A stretch of DNA of 64,000 bases from a virus: positions 1 through 64,000 of the IMG/VR virus record IMGVR_UViG_3300023179_000071. One strand, 5' to 3'. The notes under the pieces were generated by a model. That model had not been told where the DNA came from and searched no databases. It worked only from the letters and a program-made list of their open reading frames with translations. The translations under genes were made by a program, and so were the position numbers. Of the stretch, positions 57,104 to 64,000 are shown in pieces (the stretch's first letter is position 1; every line of letters begins with the position of its first letter).

Positions 57104-57490
57104 TCAAAATGCAACTGTCTCTTCTTCTTCTTCCTCTGAAGAAGCGTTTGCTACCTTCTTGGAAATCTTTGTGATCTTGGAAAAATTATTAACTCTAACC
57201 TTTAGAGTGCTATGCTTTACGCCGTCCTTTTCCCACGAGTCATTACGAAGGGTTCCTTCTACTAGAACCAGATCACCCTTCTTGAAAGATGCAGCAATAG
57301 TTTCTGCACCACTATCCCACGCTTCACAAGAGATAAAGGAAGTTACTTTGTCCTTGCTTCCGTTTGCCCTGCTAAATTCTCTAGAAACAGCAACAGTAAA
57401 GTTGACAACAGCAGTCTTCTTTTCTGATACTGTGATATGTCTTAATTCAGGATCCCTTGTTAGATTTCCTCTCAAAATTACAATATTCAT
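57104..57490 (-). CDS. ssb: Single-stranded DNA-binding protein
   Basis: The 128-residue bacterial-type SSB coats ssDNA in replication and recombination. It has the OB-fold pattern MNIVILRGNLTRDPELRH, ...AVVNFTVAVSREF, TSFISCEAW, FKKGDLVLVEGTLRNDSW and TLKVRVNNF. The acidic C-terminal tail ends EEEEEETVAF, close to the DDDIPF tip used by bacterial SSBs to bind partner proteins, so interaction with polymerase or repair proteins is expected. I begin it at the ATG at 57490 with AGGAG 8 bases upstream rather than the longer in-frame start at 57526. It is preceded by a near-consensus promoter and followed by a stem-loop. Confidence 0.93.
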   Translation of the reverse strand: MNIVILRGNLTRDPELRHITVSEKKTAVVNFTVAVSREFSRANGSKDKVTSFISCEAWDSGAETIAASFKKGDLVLVEGTLRNDSWEKDGVKHSTLKVRVNNFSKITKISKKVANASSEEEEEETVAF

Positions 57491-57532: not shown

Positions 57533-57560
57533 ATTATAACTGGGGCTCCTACAGTGTCAA
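57533..57560 (-). promoter_or_regulatory. Near-perfect sigma70-type promoter for ssb
   Basis: On the minus strand TTGACA (57560-57555) is separated by 16 bases from TATAAT (57538-57533). Both hexamers are full consensus. The -35 box overlaps the stop codon of the dnaE C-terminal gene. Transcription would start about 7 bases after TATAAT, around 57526, giving a short leader before the ssb ATG at 57490. Host RNA polymerase is the likely user. Confidence 0.8.
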
Positions 57561-59182
57561 GATTCCGGTATAAAACATTTCTCGACAATTAGGCCACTTC
57601 CAGCTTTCTTTGATTTGGTGCCGATAAACACTAAAACCTCATTCTCTTTTAATAGGTCTTTAAATTCATCATATTGTTCCGGAAACATAACTACAGAGTC
57701 AAGACCACCTGAGCTATCAAATATCTCTAAAAAAGACATACTAGCTCCTTTATTTTTACCTTGCTTAGTTTTTGTAATACTAAGCCTACTAATTTCACCC
57801 ATAATGGCTACTTTTTTGCCACTATTAACAGTATGGAATTCTTTACATGAAACTAGATTTGACTCATAATTTTGCATATAGCAATCTGTTTTCGTGCATG
57901 TCAATGGGATGCCGAGTAGTCCCGCTTCTGTTTCTGCTATCCATTGCATATTATCTTTTAATGCATATGGTGGATTGTCTATACTTGAAATGAATTCCTG
58001 TACAAGCGACTGTCTTTTCTTTGTAACTTTGCAATCGGTTAACAGTCTAATAAATATATCTCTAAATTTAATACTACTTATATCTATATTTTTGTCTACT
58101 ATTTGTGCTATCTCTTTTTTTGTCAACTTATTTAACATTTCTAGATAGAATAATAATTCTGTTCTAGGTATCTTATACTCATCAAATGCCCCAACAGAGA
58201 CTATAGCTTTTGCTGCTGCACTATTAATATTAACCATTAATCTACAAAATGTTGGTATTATTCCAGTAATATTTTTATTTATTAAAGTTAAATGTAGTTT
58301 TGCTATTGTGTCGTATACAGAATCTCCAACACCCTTTATATTTGTAATTCCAAAATGGATAGTATTATCAATAATGGCAAACTCTTTATTCATATGTTTA
58401 AATTTTGGTAATAAAACATCTATATTCATAGAGTTAGCATTATGAATAAGTTCTTTGATTTCCTGATGAGGATCTATTTTATCTTTTGCAAATCTCAGAT
58501 AAGAAACAAAGAATATTTGAGGGAAGTGCGCCTTGGCATATGCTGATAGATAGCCATTGATAGCATAACTAACAGCATGGCTTTTATTAAATGAATACCT
58601 TTGGCTTTTCTCAATCCACCCGAATATTTCTTCTGCTTCATGTTCTGTAACAATATGTTTATCATTGCAACCATTGATAAAAATTTTCTTGAGCTTTGCC
58701 ATTTCTTCTGGCTTCTTTTTTCCAATAGCTTTTCTCAACATGTCAGCTTCTTGCAGATCAAAGCCTGCTAGCTCTTGTGCTATTTGCATACTTTGTTCTT
58801 GATATACCATTTCACCATATGTAGTTTCTAGTATATTTTTTAGACTTGGATTATAGTAATCTATACTTTCTTGTCCATTTTTTCTATCTATAAAATGATT
58901 ACTAACGCTTTTACCATCCCTGATAGCCTCCAGACATCCTGGCCTCATGATACTAATAAGGCCAGCTAGTTGTTCTATATTTTCCGGCTTGAGTTTTTTG
59001 GCCATACTTTGCCCAAGTCTTGACTCTAACTGGAAACATCCCTTGGTATTACCATCGGATATTAATTTCCAGGTTCTGGAACAATCAAGAGGAATGGTGT
59101 TAACATCAAAATCCATTAACTCAATATTATTAGAGTCAACTGGAAATCTGCACCCGCAATCGAACTGATAGTATTTGCTCAT
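57557..59182 (-). CDS. dnaE: DNA polymerase III alpha, C-terminal half (split gene)
   Basis: The 541-residue product carries the fingers, HhH and OB regions of DnaE. The start MSKYYQFDCGCRFPVDSNN is not part of ordinary DnaE and includes a CGC pair. The DnaE match begins at VNTIPLDCSRTWKLISDGNT and KGCFQLESRLG, continues with EQLAGLISIMRPGCLEAI, VYQEQSMQIAQELAGF, YSFNKSHAVSYAINGYLSAY, an HhH region (HFGITNIKGVGDSVYDTI) and an OB-fold (VAIMGEISRLSITKTKQGKN). It ends soon after the OB-fold, so the tau-binding C-terminus of bacterial DnaE is missing. It must pair with the N-terminal half encoded upstream. The ATG overlaps the exonuclease stop (ATGA). The CGC extension may help the halves associate (inference). 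Confidence 0.88.
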   Translation of the reverse strand: MSKYYQFDCGCRFPVDSNNIELMDFDVNTIPLDCSRTWKLISDGNTKGCFQLESRLGQSMAKKLKPENIEQLAGLISIMRPGCLEAIRDGKSVSNHFIDRKNGQESIDYYNPSLKNILETTYGEMVYQEQSMQIAQELAGFDLQEADMLRKAIGKKKPEEMAKLKKIFINGCNDKHIVTEHEAEEIFGWIEKSQRYSFNKSHAVSYAINGYLSAYAKAHFPQIFFVSYLRFAKDKIDPHQEIKELIHNANSMNIDVLLPKFKHMNKEFAIIDNTIHFGITNIKGVGDSVYDTIAKLHLTLINKNITGIIPTFCRLMVNINSAAAKAIVSVGAFDEYKIPRTELLFYLEMLNKLTKKEIAQIVDKNIDISSIKFRDIFIRLLTDCKVTKKRQSLVQEFISSIDNPPYALKDNMQWIAETEAGLLGIPLTCTKTDCYMQNYESNLVSCKEFHTVNSGKKVAIMGEISRLSITKTKQGKNKGASMSFLEIFDSSGGLDSVVMFPEQYDEFKDLLKENEVLVFIGTKSKKAGSGLIVEKCFIPES

Positions 59183-59868
59183 TGTGTTACAAAAGAGTCT
59201 CTAAATTTTATTTTCTTTGATAGATTTCTATGTAGTTTTAGGAAACGGATAAGTAGTTCAGCACAATCATTGACATCTTTCAATGCATCATGGGCGCCAG
59301 CCTTACTAATACCCATATAGTCTCTAATATTATCTAGTGTGAGATTTTTGATATCGCTATTGCTTTCGAACCAATAAAATAGCAGATTCATCATATCCAA
59401 AGTATCTCTTGGATAAAATAAACTAGATCCATTTTCGCTATTGATATATCCAAATTTACGACTAAATCTTTCCACAATTTTCATGTCAAATCTCAATATA
59501 TTATATCCAGAAGCAACAGGTGCAGAAAACATACTTTTTTTACTTCTGTTCAAATGATATATTTCTAGATACTGAGAAAACATTGACCATGCTTGTTGTT
59601 GAGACATTGCATTCTGCCAAGACTTAAGAATATCTTCTTTACTGCAAGCTCTAACCTTTGCGTGGAAATCTAGTATATCGCTATCTTGATAGGTATATTC
59701 TGGATCGTTTTCTAATTTTTCTGGTTTAACATGAATATTAAATGCTGAATCTTTAATAATAGATAAATTATATGGATCTACTATGATTGCGGCTATCTGA
59801 ACAGGGCTGCAAGTATCTGTATCTGTTCCATCTGTTTCAAAGTCAAATATACATATTTTGTTTTTCAT
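59179..59868 (-). CDS. dnaQ: DnaQ-like 3'-5' exonuclease (proofreading)
   Basis: This 229-residue DEDDh exonuclease probably serves as the epsilon-type proofreader for the split polymerase. Exo I is KICIFDFETDGTD (D and E), Exo II is ASGYNILRFDMKIVERF (D), and Exo III is GAHDALKDVNDCAEL (H and D). Length is normal for a stand-alone domain. Its start and stop each overlap neighbours by 4 bases (ATGA), so it is translated with the RCC1 gene before it and the polymerase half after it. It could also function as a general DNA-repair nuclease. Confidence 0.88.
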   Translation of the reverse strand: MKNKICIFDFETDGTDTDTCSPVQIAAIIVDPYNLSIIKDSAFNIHVKPEKLENDPEYTYQDSDILDFHAKVRACSKEDILKSWQNAMSQQQAWSMFSQYLEIYHLNRSKKSMFSAPVASGYNILRFDMKIVERFSRKFGYINSENGSSLFYPRDTLDMMNLLFYWFESNSDIKNLTLDNIRDYMGISKAGAHDALKDVNDCAELLIRFLKLHRNLSKKIKFRDSFVTQ

Positions 59869-62369
59869 ATGGTTATGCCAGTTTCGTCCTTTAGTGCTTC
59901 AAGAATAGAGAATGGATTATTATAGTATATATGTAGATTAAGCTGATGTCCACAAAATATCCTACCAAGGCTATCACGAACCCTGACACACCCTATAAGG
60001 TAGTTGACAGACATGGGTCTGTCCAGAGTAATTTTTGTAATATTTAGTTTTGAATCATATATAACGGATTCAGCATTAAAAGTTGCTGTTTGCTGATAAA
60101 TATTGTCTATTTCTTCTTTATTTGGATCGGGATTAGATGATCTTACCCAATAGCTAATTTTAACAGCTCCTGGTAATATTTTGCCAGTCACATTATATGG
60201 TACAATTAACGTTTGTCTATCTGGTTTATACTCATAAGATGAACTAGTTTCTGTAATTTTTAATTCTCTAGAAAAATATGTATAGCATACAATACGATCT
60301 ATAGGGATATTGATATAATGATACCCCCTGTTTACGCTATTCATATAGTATGATTCAAAAGCGTTAAGCATCTTGACATATCCGTCTGTGGATAAAGTGC
60401 CGTTCGATAATTTGTATAACGGCTGCCCACTTGATGCATCAAAGTATATTTTGCCTTGTAACTGTGTATTGAAAATATCTCTTAATAATCTAAAAGAATC
60501 TCCTGTAATTTTTTCATACCTTATTGCATCAGGGGAATTAGTGTTACCAGAAGTATCAGGCTTACCATTTCTGATAGCATCATATAGCTCTTCTAGTTCT
60601 ATTTTTGTAAAACCAAAAAAGTATTTTGTAAGTTCTGGATCAGTTTTTTCATTAAGAAAATATTCGATTAGTTGTTTAGCGTATGTGCCTATATTATAGG
60701 TAATATATCTACGACCACCAGCAGCAAAAGAATCTACAACAACATAGCAAGCGTATAGCCATTCTGTAAGTTCCGGGGCTATTGCTGGCTCATTATTCCA
60801 TCCATTGCACGTAGGTATAGGATCAGACGATTCCTGTGCTTTAATTCTAATATATGGATCAACAAAATTTTGAGCAAATGCACTTTTACCTTGTGATAAC
60901 TCGTACCGTATAAGATATGGTGGGGTCATGAATAGGTCTTCTATTAGAACACGATTATTCTCATCTACAGGCCATCCTACGGTTTTATAGATAATTTTTG
61001 GATCTGTTGGGTCTTTTTCATTTTTTACAGTATAGAAAAACCCACTATTCGGAGACATAAAGATTTCTAATAGCTTTTCATTAGTTTCGAAAGTATTAAA
61101 TGGTTCGCAAAAACCATCATATAACCAAAATCTATTTGCTGTTACATACTTAATGGGTTGGTTCTTCTCATCTGTTCTAAAAAAATATACTGGGGCACTT
61201 CTATCATAAAAATTTATAGGTATAGGATTATCTGGAGAAGACGTGTGTAAATTGAATGCATCTCCAGGCAACAGCTTATAGGAACTCACTTCTTCAAAGT
61301 ACGGAGGAAAATCACCTTTCACGAAAACTTCTCTTGCGCTCAATTTTTCTACAGGAGTATCTAAATTAAATTCATCATCTGGATTTTCTGTGAAGTGCAA
61401 TCCTCCGAATAGAATTATATCTAATAAATTTTTCTTACCAGTAGCTAACATCATGCCTTTTAAGGTAAAGGGGTCCATTTTGTTGGGATATGGACCACCC
61501 ATATAGTCGATTCCAGCTAGAGGTGAATCAAATACAAAATTTGTACCGTATTGTTCTTTAGCAGAGAATACCGTTGCTCTTTTATCTCCTATAAAATCTG
61601 TGAATGTAAATGTTTGTATACTAGGATAAACGGCCGGCACTGTACTCTTAAGTTCTCTGTACTTTCTATGCATACATAAAGCATTTACTGGGCAACATCC
61701 CAAATCTATCTGGTATGTGTCAACTTTTTTATATACCAACCTCTCCCTATTGAAAGGATCATATAGAGTAAAATAATCTCCTAATGATAATTGTCTAAAT
61801 GTAGTAAATTCTTGTGGTATAAGATCGCCAGACCAATCTGAAAAAACTTCTCTTCCACTACTAATTCTGGCTATTATAGTTTTGGGGCCAGTATCAACAG
61901 TTAGAAATGCTTCTCCAGATGGATCAGTATAGTATAGTAAAACCATTTCCCTATTAACTTCTACAATTTTAGAACCAAGATTTTGAAATGTTCCAAAACA
62001 GTATGACTTTTCACTAGTTTGTGAAATAATAGTGAAGTATAATCCAATATTTAGATCTATAGGCTTGCTTTGATTTATTGGAACGTCTTTTTTATTCGGT
62101 AAGGTAAGATATTTGGTTGATTCGGGTAAGCCCATTTGTCCTTCTATATTGGACCCCCACATCCATATACTTTTATCTTCCTTTATGGCAACAGAATGAT
62201 TTGCTCCTACCAGCGCTTCTACCCATGGGATAGCGTCGTATTGAGGTATTCCAGTAATTACCTTGTGTGTATCTGGAGTATCTTCTATGCTTCCTATACC
62301 CAATTGGCCATATTGATTATCGCCAGATGAGTATAGATCTCCATTCTGTATATAGAGTATATGTCCCAT
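59865..62369 (-). CDS. RCC1-repeat protein between the two dnaE halves
   Basis: The 834-residue protein begins with RCC1-type blades: LYSSGDNQYGQLGIG, IWMWGSNIEGQMGLP and a weaker SYCFGTFQN, all within residues 1-130. The remaining 700 residues are unrecognised and look structural (beta-rich, many Tyr/Phe/Pro, isolated Cys such as LGCCPVNALCMH). It shares the RCC1 module style with the adhesins at 22729 and 27348, on the opposite strand. Gene ends overlap the exonuclease start by 4 bases; AGGA lies close upstream of the ATG. Its presence in a replication operon is unexpected. Possible roles are a virion protein expressed with replication genes, or a scaffold for polymerase assembly. Neither is shown. 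Confidence 0.6.
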   Translation of the reverse strand: MGHILYIQNGDLYSSGDNQYGQLGIGSIEDTPDTHKVITGIPQYDAIPWVEALVGANHSVAIKEDKSIWMWGSNIEGQMGLPESTKYLTLPNKKDVPINQSKPIDLNIGLYFTIISQTSEKSYCFGTFQNLGSKIVEVNREMVLLYYTDPSGEAFLTVDTGPKTIIARISSGREVFSDWSGDLIPQEFTTFRQLSLGDYFTLYDPFNRERLVYKKVDTYQIDLGCCPVNALCMHRKYRELKSTVPAVYPSIQTFTFTDFIGDKRATVFSAKEQYGTNFVFDSPLAGIDYMGGPYPNKMDPFTLKGMMLATGKKNLLDIILFGGLHFTENPDDEFNLDTPVEKLSAREVFVKGDFPPYFEEVSSYKLLPGDAFNLHTSSPDNPIPINFYDRSAPVYFFRTDEKNQPIKYVTANRFWLYDGFCEPFNTFETNEKLLEIFMSPNSGFFYTVKNEKDPTDPKIIYKTVGWPVDENNRVLIEDLFMTPPYLIRYELSQGKSAFAQNFVDPYIRIKAQESSDPIPTCNGWNNEPAIAPELTEWLYACYVVVDSFAAGGRRYITYNIGTYAKQLIEYFLNEKTDPELTKYFFGFTKIELEELYDAIRNGKPDTSGNTNSPDAIRYEKITGDSFRLLRDIFNTQLQGKIYFDASSGQPLYKLSNGTLSTDGYVKMLNAFESYYMNSVNRGYHYINIPIDRIVCYTYFSRELKITETSSSYEYKPDRQTLIVPYNVTGKILPGAVKISYWVRSSNPDPNKEEIDNIYQQTATFNAESVIYDSKLNITKITLDRPMSVNYLIGCVRVRDSLGRIFCGHQLNLHIYYNNPFSILEALKDETGITI

Positions 62370-62396
62370 TAAATCCTACTTACTTTGAACCCTATG
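62370..62396 (-). other. Gap between the 60-residue gene and the RCC1 gene
   Basis: The 27 bases hold TAGGATTTA, which provides the ribosome binding site for the RCC1 gene, and nothing else recognisable. Confidence 0.5.
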
Positions 62397-62579
62397 CTAT
62401 TTAATAGTTACCGTAGCATTATCTGGAATAAAAACCTTCTCACCAGTGCTTGCGATAACAGCATTTAGTTTTCTGCAACAAGAAACCCTAACTTCTGCTG
62501 TTTTTCTATATTCTGTATTATTATAGACAAATACTGTATCAATTGTAATATTAGCAAATGTTGTTTGAAGCTCCGACAT
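62397..62579 (-). CDS. Small 60-residue hypothetical protein
   Basis: This protein is predicted to be all beta (VFVYNNTEYRKTAEVRVSCC, KVFIPDNATVTIK), with a CC pair near the middle. It overlaps the end of the upstream polymerase N-terminal half by 29 bases and has AAAGGG 9 bases before its ATG, which supports translation. No enzyme motif was found. Its size and place between the dnaE halves leave open a role in polymerase assembly, but this is only context. Confidence 0.5.
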   Translation of the reverse strand: MSELQTTFANITIDTVFVYNNTEYRKTAEVRVSCCRKLNAVIASTGEKVFIPDNATVTIK

Positions 62580-64000
62580 AATTTTTACCCTTTAATAAAG
62601 ATTGGATACACATGATTTTATCTAACATACCGATACCTAAAATATCAAACTTAACTATACCTAATGATTCTAAATCTTGCATTTCCATTCCTGCAATACT
62701 GTTACCAGTCTTAGAATCATACACCATAGGACAAATACCATCTAAATTGTGTGCTGAAATTGCGATACCAGCAGCGTGTTTAGATTGATTTGATTTGGTG
62801 CCTTCTAATCTAATAGCTTGTTCAAAGCGTTTGGCAAATAGTCCCGTGATTGTTCCATCCTCTTTAATTTCGCACCAATCTTTAAATTTATCTGGAGTAT
62901 TCTCTAAAGCCCATTGTATAATAGATGACTCTCCTCTATCTTCTTTCATTTCTTGTAAATCATCTGCTATTTTAGCTTCATCAGGAATATGTTTAGTTAT
63001 TTGATTCATTTCTTCATATGATAACCCACCATAAACTCTCAGAACTTCCTTGAGCGCTCCTCGTCCTTTCATTGTATTAAAAGTTATCATTTGAGATACT
63101 TTACTATCTCCATATTTACTCTTTATATATGAGATAACACTATCTCTGGTGGTCATAGGAACGTCTATATCTATATCTGGCATAGAAACTCTATCGCCAG
63201 TGTTTCTTCCTGCATTATAAAATCTTTCAAAAAGAAGATCATATTTTATGGGATCAATATTTGTAATTTCTAATAAATATGAAACTAGACATCCAGCAGC
63301 AGATCCTCTACCCGGACCAGGAAGCCAAGAATTACTTCTAATAAAATTGACTATATCTTGCACAATAAGAAAGTATCCTGATAATTTAGCTCCTTGTAAA
63401 ACAGAAAGTTCCTGTTTAATTCTATCTGCATAAATTTTTTGATCTTCTTCTGAAGCTTTGGTAAAGCCACGCTTTCTCCATCCGTCTCTACATAATTGTC
63501 TCAAGTATTCATCTTCATTTTCAATAAATTCTGGTAATTGTGGCCTATTAAGAATATTGTAATCTTCGCACATATCAGATACTAGATTAGTATTTGCTAA
63601 TTCTTCTTGAGTATGCAATGATTCCATTTCGTCACCAGATAAGATATAAAAATTATCAGATTTAAAAAAACAACCCAATGGAACACTCTCATTGTTAATA
63701 ATCTTTTTATTGATTTCTGGAAATGTTGTTTTGAGTGTATTGCATAATAAAACTCTTTGGTCTATTGCGTCTTCTTTATTTGCGTAGTGAGCATCTGGCG
63801 TTGCTATAATTTTGATACTATGTTTTTTGGACAGCGATCTCATAATATCTGTTAAGACTGTTTGAAATGGCAAATACTCTCTGTCCATTAGTTGGGCTTC
63901 TAGGCAGATATTTTCAGAACCAAAGATAGATTTTAATTGATCTATTAATAGAGATGCTCTAGTCAAATCCGAACCATTACCAACCGCATCGGCAACATTT
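62551..64000 (-). CDS. dnaE: DNA polymerase III alpha, N-terminal half (start beyond window)
   Basis: The frame is open to the right window edge (GNGSDLTRASLLIDQL), so the true start is outside; the TTG at 63966 is not it. The visible 482 residues carry part of the PHP domain (IIATPDAHYANKEDA, LCNTLKTTFPE), then the palm core GPGRGSAAGCLVSYLLEITN, the acidic cluster PDIDIDV (catalytic Asp401/403 in E. coli) near base 63170, and VKFDILGIG with the third catalytic Asp (Asp555 in E. coli) near base 62640. The protein ends 25-30 residues later (MCIQSLLKGKNYVGASNNIC), just before the fingers. All catalytic aspartates are in this piece; the rest of the enzyme is encoded at 57557-59182. No intein N-terminal signature is visible at the end. 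Confidence 0.9.
   Translation of the reverse strand, partial: NVADAVGNGSDLTRASLLIDQLKSIFGSENICLEAQLMDREYLPFQTVLTDIMRSLSKKHSIKIIATPDAHYANKEDAIDQRVLLCNTLKTTFPEINKKIINNESVPLGCFFKSDNFYILSGDEMESLHTQEELANTNLVSDMCEDYNILNRPQLPEFIENEDEYLRQLCRDGWRKRGFTKASEEDQKIYADRIKQELSVLQGAKLSGYFLIVQDIVNFIRSNSWLPGPGRGSAAGCLVSYLLEITNIDPIKYDLLFERFYNAGRNTGDRVSMPDIDIDVPMTTRDSVISYIKSKYGDSKVSQMITFNTMKGRGALKEVLRVYGGLSYEEMNQITKHIPDEAKIADDLQEMKEDRGESSIIQWALENTPDKFKDWCEIKEDGTITGLFAKRFEQAIRLEGTKSNQSKHAAGIAISAHNLDGICPMVYDSKTGNSIAGMEMQDLESLGIVKFDILGIGMLDKIMCIQSLLKGKNYVGASNNIC

Follow-up and report, generated by a model that had tools for sequence, protein, structure and literature searches.

Genes of the divided polymerase

The stretch of DNA analysed in this work, hereafter the window, comprises positions 1-64000 of the 81,876-bp virus record IMGVR_UViG_3300023179_000071 in IMG/VR. 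Its DNA polymerase III (Pol III) alpha subunit is encoded by two separate genes on the minus strand. The gene for the N half, dnaE-N, is located at 62551..64000 and continues past the window edge to record position 64425, while the gene for the C half, dnaE-C, is located at 57557..59182. A first-pass annotation of the window had reported the two pieces, and both its coordinates and the motifs quoted from each piece were correct when the sequence was read again. It had also proposed to extend the contig to the right; reading the record beyond the window edge gave the whole N half, 62551-64425 on the minus strand (L002:551-2425, minus strand), with a length of 624 aa.

The dnaE-N product contains a complete PHP domain (PF02811) followed by the palm and thumb (PF07733), and it terminates 25 residues beyond the motif VKFDILGIG, the stop codon being at 62551-62553. 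The catalytic triad, D417, D419 and D594, is entirely within this half and was kept in all of the 37 N halves that were aligned. The PHP metal-ligand positions H8, H10, D17, H42, E67, H87, H139, D211 and H213 were conserved in the aligned relatives, with deviations at positions 8 and 10 in a few rows that have other or truncated starts. The roles of the three aspartates and of the ligand positions are presumed to be those established for DnaE. The dnaE-C product, 541 aa long, begins with MSKYYQFDCGCRFPVD and contains the fingers, the helix-hairpin-helix (HhH) and the oligonucleotide-binding (OB) fold according to Pfam and the predicted fold. The motif KGCFQLES is present and SFNKSHAVSYA is intact.

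Pfam domains were divided cleanly between the two products. The N half matched PHP and DNA_pol3_alpha, the latter up to the last profile position, and the C half matched DNA_pol3_finger and HHH_6. These matches were above cut-off; the OB-fold match in dnaE-C was just below the curated cut-off, and the OB region aligns to residues 949-1055 of the E. coli alpha subunit. Pfam and the alignments confirmed the earlier assignment of the catalytic aspartates to the first piece and of the fingers, HhH and OB-fold to the second. In PHROG 405, a family of intact phage polymerases, the N half covers positions 41-615 and the C half positions 622-1074 without overlap, and since the two halves tile the family in this way, the core has neither missing nor doubled parts. 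Alignment to solved structures placed the cut between the equivalents of approximately residues 575 and 585 of E. coli alpha, directly after the palm. The predicted fold of dnaE-C alone corresponds to the fingers-HhH-OB part of Pol III alpha, with 4iqj and 2hpi as the best structure matches, and the two halves match Pol III alpha structures across complementary ranges.

Only a single palm match and a single fingers match were found in the 81,876-bp record, which contained no second or intact dnaE and no other polymerase of family A, B or C. An intact single-frame relative or a second dnaE in the same genome had been named beforehand as findings that would speak against a split enzyme; the record contained no second dnaE, and no single-frame relative was found in the clade described below.

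Conservation of the split among related viruses

IMG/VR was scanned with each half separately as well as with aligned C halves and a second, more distant alignment, and the retrieved loci were then read for gene structure. The C query gave 79 distinct loci with both genes, to which 69 more distant ones and the loci from the N query were added. Every one of them was split at the palm/fingers junction. In profile scoring, 148 distinct rows were assigned to the split clade and none of these was intact; the comparison set consisted of 83 intact bacterial and phage DnaE of other groups. A gene for an exonuclease was located between the halves in every distinct locus with both flanks. The gap between dnaE-N and the exonuclease gene was 164-235 bp in 88 of 94 distinct loci, nearly all of them from the subclade of the window, and in other subclades it ranged from a 4-base overlap to approximately 1.3 kb. 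Where the exonuclease gene meets dnaE-C, the two mostly overlapped by a few bases.

Both halves are under purifying selection. Relative to the closest relatives, the ratio of nonsynonymous to synonymous substitution rates (dN/dS) was 0.06-0.09 for the N half and 0.02-0.04 for the C half where dS could be estimated; dS was near saturation and the values are rough. The two halves co-diverge, as in a set of 34 loci the pairwise identities of the N halves were correlated with those of the C halves (r = 0.90), and 0 of 2000 permutations gave a value as high. A further 28 viral records, 74-244 kb in size, were screened; 27 contained exactly one palm match and one fingers match, while in the remaining one the palm itself was cut by an insertion bearing a LAGLIDADG domain.

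An explanation of the break as an artefact or as a decaying gene, that is a frameshift, a misassembly or a pseudogene, retains hardly any credibility in the light of these results. It can draw on the break itself and on frame breaks in single genes of a few loci, such as the exonuclease of L019. Sequencing error and misassembly are refuted by the related loci, as the identical junction is found in approximately 148 distinct loci from many samples, and decay is opposed by the strong selection on both halves, which are also the sole C-family palm and fingers of their records.

The two proteins could also perform separate jobs, the N half as a PHP nuclease or nucleotidyltransferase and the C half as a DNA- or clamp-binding factor, with the genome copied by the host or by another polymerase. 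This agrees with the conservation of the PHP metal-ligand positions in the N half, and the joint fold of the halves is a proposed one. However, the catalytic aspartates and the fingers motifs are all conserved and the halves co-diverge. No family A or B polymerase was found in the 28 further viral records, which are not established as complete, PF00136 (family B) had no match in 29 viral records, and the record of the window has a replisome gene set. We consider such a division of labour improbable.

In the phylogenetic tree the split loci formed one clade with a support of 100/100, and the branch leading to intact DnaE had a length of 1.41 changes per column. As all members are split and the group is fully supported, one fission event is sufficient within this main clade. 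The viruses are phages, judged by their gene content, and no cultured member of the clade was found in the INPHARED phage collection, where the best matches were only approximately 34% (N) and 31% (C) identical; two other clade members gave a similar result. Three members were derived from metagenome-assembled genomes (MAGs), namely L087 and L258 from the MAG Candidatus Lokiarchaeota Hel_238_bin13 and L086 from a Flavobacteriales MAG, and such contigs may be accidents of binning. The two contigs in the archaeal bin are viral and were either binned wrongly or derived from viruses that infect that host.

The cysteine hook at the start of the C half

The dnaE-C product opens with a segment of 20-30 residues which contains a CGC pair (C9 and C11) and is predicted to form a small three-stranded sheet with strands at residues 3-6, 12-16 and 19-23. 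It is followed by a third cysteine, C34, within the motif L-[DE]-C-x-x-T-W. This N-terminal hook, encoded at 59081..59182 on the minus strand, is specific to the clade. The first-pass annotation had suggested searching metagenomic phages for the same split and the same CGC pair, and among the approximately 148 distinct loci split alike, C9, C11 and C34 were all present in 142 of 148 rows. The CGC pair was found in 0 of 83 intact DnaE, and 82 of these 83 have Asp at position 34. The hook has been lost approximately three times, in L007/L008, in L077, L297 and L308, and in L328 and L336; the last two resemble intact enzymes in having Asp at position 34.

We regard the hook, with moderate confidence, as a putative metal-binding docking element. 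This is close to the earlier suggestion, in which the CGC segment was described as an extra element absent from normal DnaE that could serve in docking or metal binding. Its presence and its absence from intact enzymes were borne out, and conservation together with a third cysteine fits the proposed role, but the hook is not indispensable. A cysteine of the N half, C565, was considered as its partner. This position is Cys in 140 of 148 split rows, and among the intact enzymes scored there it is V, I, L, T or A in nearly all and Cys in one. As a strict partner of the hook C565 is unsupported, since the lineages that lost the hook keep Cys565 and L264, which has the hook, lacks it.

A more far-reaching proposal is that the CGC hook and C34, possibly with C565 of the N half, bind one metal at the new interface and form a staple between the chains that replaces the peptide bond between palm and fingers, so that assembly of an active replicase becomes a controllable step, perhaps in combination with the exonuclease. 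Such a staple is favoured by the frequencies of C9, C11, C34 and C565 in split and intact rows given above, and by the Asp at position 34 in one of the three lineages without the hook. The persistence of Cys565 in lineages that lost the hook and its absence from L264 argue against it, and we consider the proposal speculative and rather doubtful.

Comparison with other divided or interrupted polymerases

Replicative C-family polymerases in bacteria are single-chain enzymes. The domains and their order in bacterial DnaE, as in the structures from E. coli (5fku) and Thermus aquaticus (2hpi), are common to the split enzyme, in which the catalytic Asp triad, the PHP ligand positions, KGxFQLES, FNKSH, HhH and OB are all recognisable. 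The split enzyme differs in consisting of two chains, in the Cys hook that opens the second of them and in the replacement of Asp by Cys at position 34. In addition, chain C has only a short stretch beyond the OB-fold; E. coli alpha runs approximately 100 residues further.

Two genes for the catalytic subunit are also found in cyanobacteria, where dnaE is split at FNKSH and repaired by protein trans-splicing. In the window FNKSH is whole, with SFNKSHAVSYA intact inside the C half, and the break is at the palm/fingers junction and free of inteins. The first-pass annotation had claimed that this is a different break and that no intein motifs are visible, and both statements held, as there is neither room nor sequence for intein halves at either end. 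Joining of the two pieces after translation or at the RNA level, by a split intein or a trans-splicing intron in the cyanobacterial manner, is in our opinion very unlikely. Split inteins do unite DnaE halves in cyanobacteria (PMC3919608), and introns and homing-endonuclease genes interrupt other dnaE sites both in the split clade and in other phages. On the other hand, the 25 residues of dnaE-N past the palm motif are too few for an intein half, and in dnaE-C the conserved hook leads straight into the fingers with no intein sequence. No Rfam intron family was matched in the 7.5 kb spanning the region, the exonuclease encoded between the halves is a conserved enzyme of an ordinary kind, and the gaps between the genes vary from an overlap to 2.8 kb.

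Group 2.2 jumbo phages have a minimal Pol III in the form of two standalone proteins, which have been proposed to reconstitute the enzyme (Iyer et al., 2021, PMC7824862). This version is without the other Pol III domains, its genes are distantly located, and a family B polymerase is encoded in the genome (PMC7824862). Compared with this published description, the clade described here retains PHP, HhH and OB, its genes form a cluster, and a family B polymerase was looked for without success. Our literature search, which covered mainly papers available without subscription, gave no description of this clade or of a phage DnaE split between palm and fingers.

The same palm/fingers cut was found in a cultured phage, Rossellomorea phage phiT1 (PV767480, L248), in which gp20 and gp18, both annotated as 'DNA polymerase III subunit alpha', are 573 and 469 aa long and have an open reading frame (ORF) of 49 aa between them. 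Unlike the split clade, phiT1 has no CGC hook and no exonuclease gene between the halves, position 34 is Asp, and the identities are only 33% and 29%. The palm/fingers split may well have arisen more than once, phiT1 then representing a separate fission event at a shared weak point, and we lean towards this view. It is favoured by the lack of the hook, the usual Asp at position 34 and a top identity of 43% to an intact phage DnaE in a phage that is split at the very same junction. However, a common clade of phiT1 and the split group was not rejected in the approximately unbiased test (p-AU 0.903 with the quick tree, 0.335 with the careful tree), and for the main clade itself one event is enough. 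The number of origins is a matter of descent and does not compete with an assembly of the halves as separate chains.

Other interruptions of dnaE are located elsewhere in the gene. In Bacillus phage vB_BauM_KLEB27-3 (L253), dnaE consists of two ORFs with an HNH endonuclease gene between them and is cut inside the fingers, probably by an intron. In L235 (record G026; L260:3996-7070), an insertion that contains a LAGLIDADG ORF (L260:4853-5746), probably also an intron, disrupts the palm of the N half at its catalytic PDID motif. A second LAGLIDADG match was found in the adjoining ORF (L260:6989-7999), and L242 and L333 are similar to L235. In KLEB27-3 and in L235 and its relatives, the presence of an endonuclease gene in the gap points to introns, whereas the break in the window has no Rfam intron match and no endonuclease gene; the genes found there are those of the exonuclease and of an RCC1-like protein, together with a small ORF. 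Apart from these cases, dnaE in two pieces was observed in L246 (Bacillus phage Jayan), L247 (Lactobacillus phage Maenad) and L257 (Bacillus phage vB_BpsS-140), where the gene is broken in the thumb/palm part and not between palm and fingers.

Proposed assembly of the two chains

As an intein, an intron or an artefact is at best a very unlikely explanation, non-covalent assembly, which the first-pass annotation had already suggested, is the remaining reading. The alpha subunit very probably consists of two separately translated polypeptides, N and C, which would form a non-covalent replicase together with the exonuclease; that the chains are separate in the infected cell and assemble non-covalently is what we infer from sequence. 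In the proposed mechanism, chain N, with PHP, palm and the three catalytic aspartates, and chain C, with fingers, HhH and OB, would assume the arrangement of an intact Pol III alpha with no peptide bond joining them. The exonuclease encoded between the halves would join the complex as its proofreading subunit, and the overlapping or closely spaced genes would keep the amounts of the proteins matched. The lost covalent link may be replaced by the hook of chain C, with its cysteines C9, C11 and C34, folding around a metal at the new interface. The fission would have occurred once, at the base of the phage clade, and would have been retained since then.

Several points weigh against this reading. 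When palm, small ORF, out-of-frame linker and C half of locus L169 were modelled as one read-through chain, a predicted local distance difference test score (pLDDT) of 57.7 and a predicted template modelling score (pTM) of 0.45 were obtained, and the model, a low-confidence arrangement, deviated from intact Pol III by a root-mean-square deviation of more than 13 Angstrom. The hook is not strictly required, because three separate lineages have lost it. A search for the beta sliding clamp domain PF02768 in 15 viral records from this clade, among them G000, gave no match, and processivity may be provided by the host clamp or by a protein that was not recognised. Finally, transcription of the genes as one unit is deduced from gene spacing only.

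The clade represents a broad and long-kept two-chain form of a replicative polymerase that is normally single-chain, and a split phage Pol III of another type has already been published. The long retention of the cut implies that the link between palm and fingers can be dispensed with, provided that the halves are held together in another way. The clade-specific Cys hook is a candidate for such an assembly element, and the gene order N, exonuclease, C suggests joint core assembly of polymerase and proofreader. A natural split polymerase thereby becomes available for biochemistry and engineering, and the loci serve as a warning for annotation pipelines which treat such pieces as fragments.

Genes between and around the halves

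The exonuclease gene in the window is located at 59179..59868 on the minus strand and encodes a DEDDh 3'-5' exonuclease (RNase_T) of 229 aa, with matches to PF00929 (E 5.8e-12) and to PHROG 192, 'DNA polymerase exonuclease subunit' (E 2.6e-20), and with the motifs DFET and HDALKD in its sequence. Its stop codon overlaps the start of dnaE-C by 4 bp (ATGA). From the position of the gene, the enzyme is likely to be the proofreading subunit of the polymerase.

An ORF of 60 aa with a VSCC...NA motif is present at 62397..62579 on the minus strand and overlaps dnaE-N by 29 bp. It belongs to a family of small single-copy proteins encoded between dnaE-N and the exonuclease gene in the large subclade of the window: 15 of 15 viral records had one copy, always at this position, with an invariant CC pair. 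Some members of the family match PHROG 2183, of unknown function, while the window ORF has no Pfam match. The protein was considered as a general third subunit and this was ruled out, as it is missing from other subclades, where dnaE-N and the exonuclease gene may overlap or be separated by only a few bases. The protein could have an accessory role at most.

Between this ORF and the exonuclease gene, at 59865..62369 on the minus strand, there is a gene for a protein of 834 aa with RCC1 repeats according to Pfam, a local insertion in the replication gene cluster. A large gap at this position was found, besides the window, only in L003, L004, L005, L007 and L008, and a role of the RCC1-like protein as part of the enzyme was ruled out, the insertion being local to the nearest relatives of the window. 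The first-pass annotation had counted three genes between the halves; all three are present in the window, but only the exonuclease gene is general.

The gene for a single-strand DNA-binding protein (SSB), assigned with Pfam and PHROG, is located directly downstream of dnaE-C, at 57107..57490 on the minus strand. Upstream on the same strand are genes for a PD-(D/E)XK nuclease, a deoxynucleoside monophosphate (dNMP) kinase, a Toprim primase, a DnaB helicase, RecA, PhoH and a B12-type ribonucleotide reductase, the last called from matches around the cut-offs. The gene neighbourhood is a replication module.

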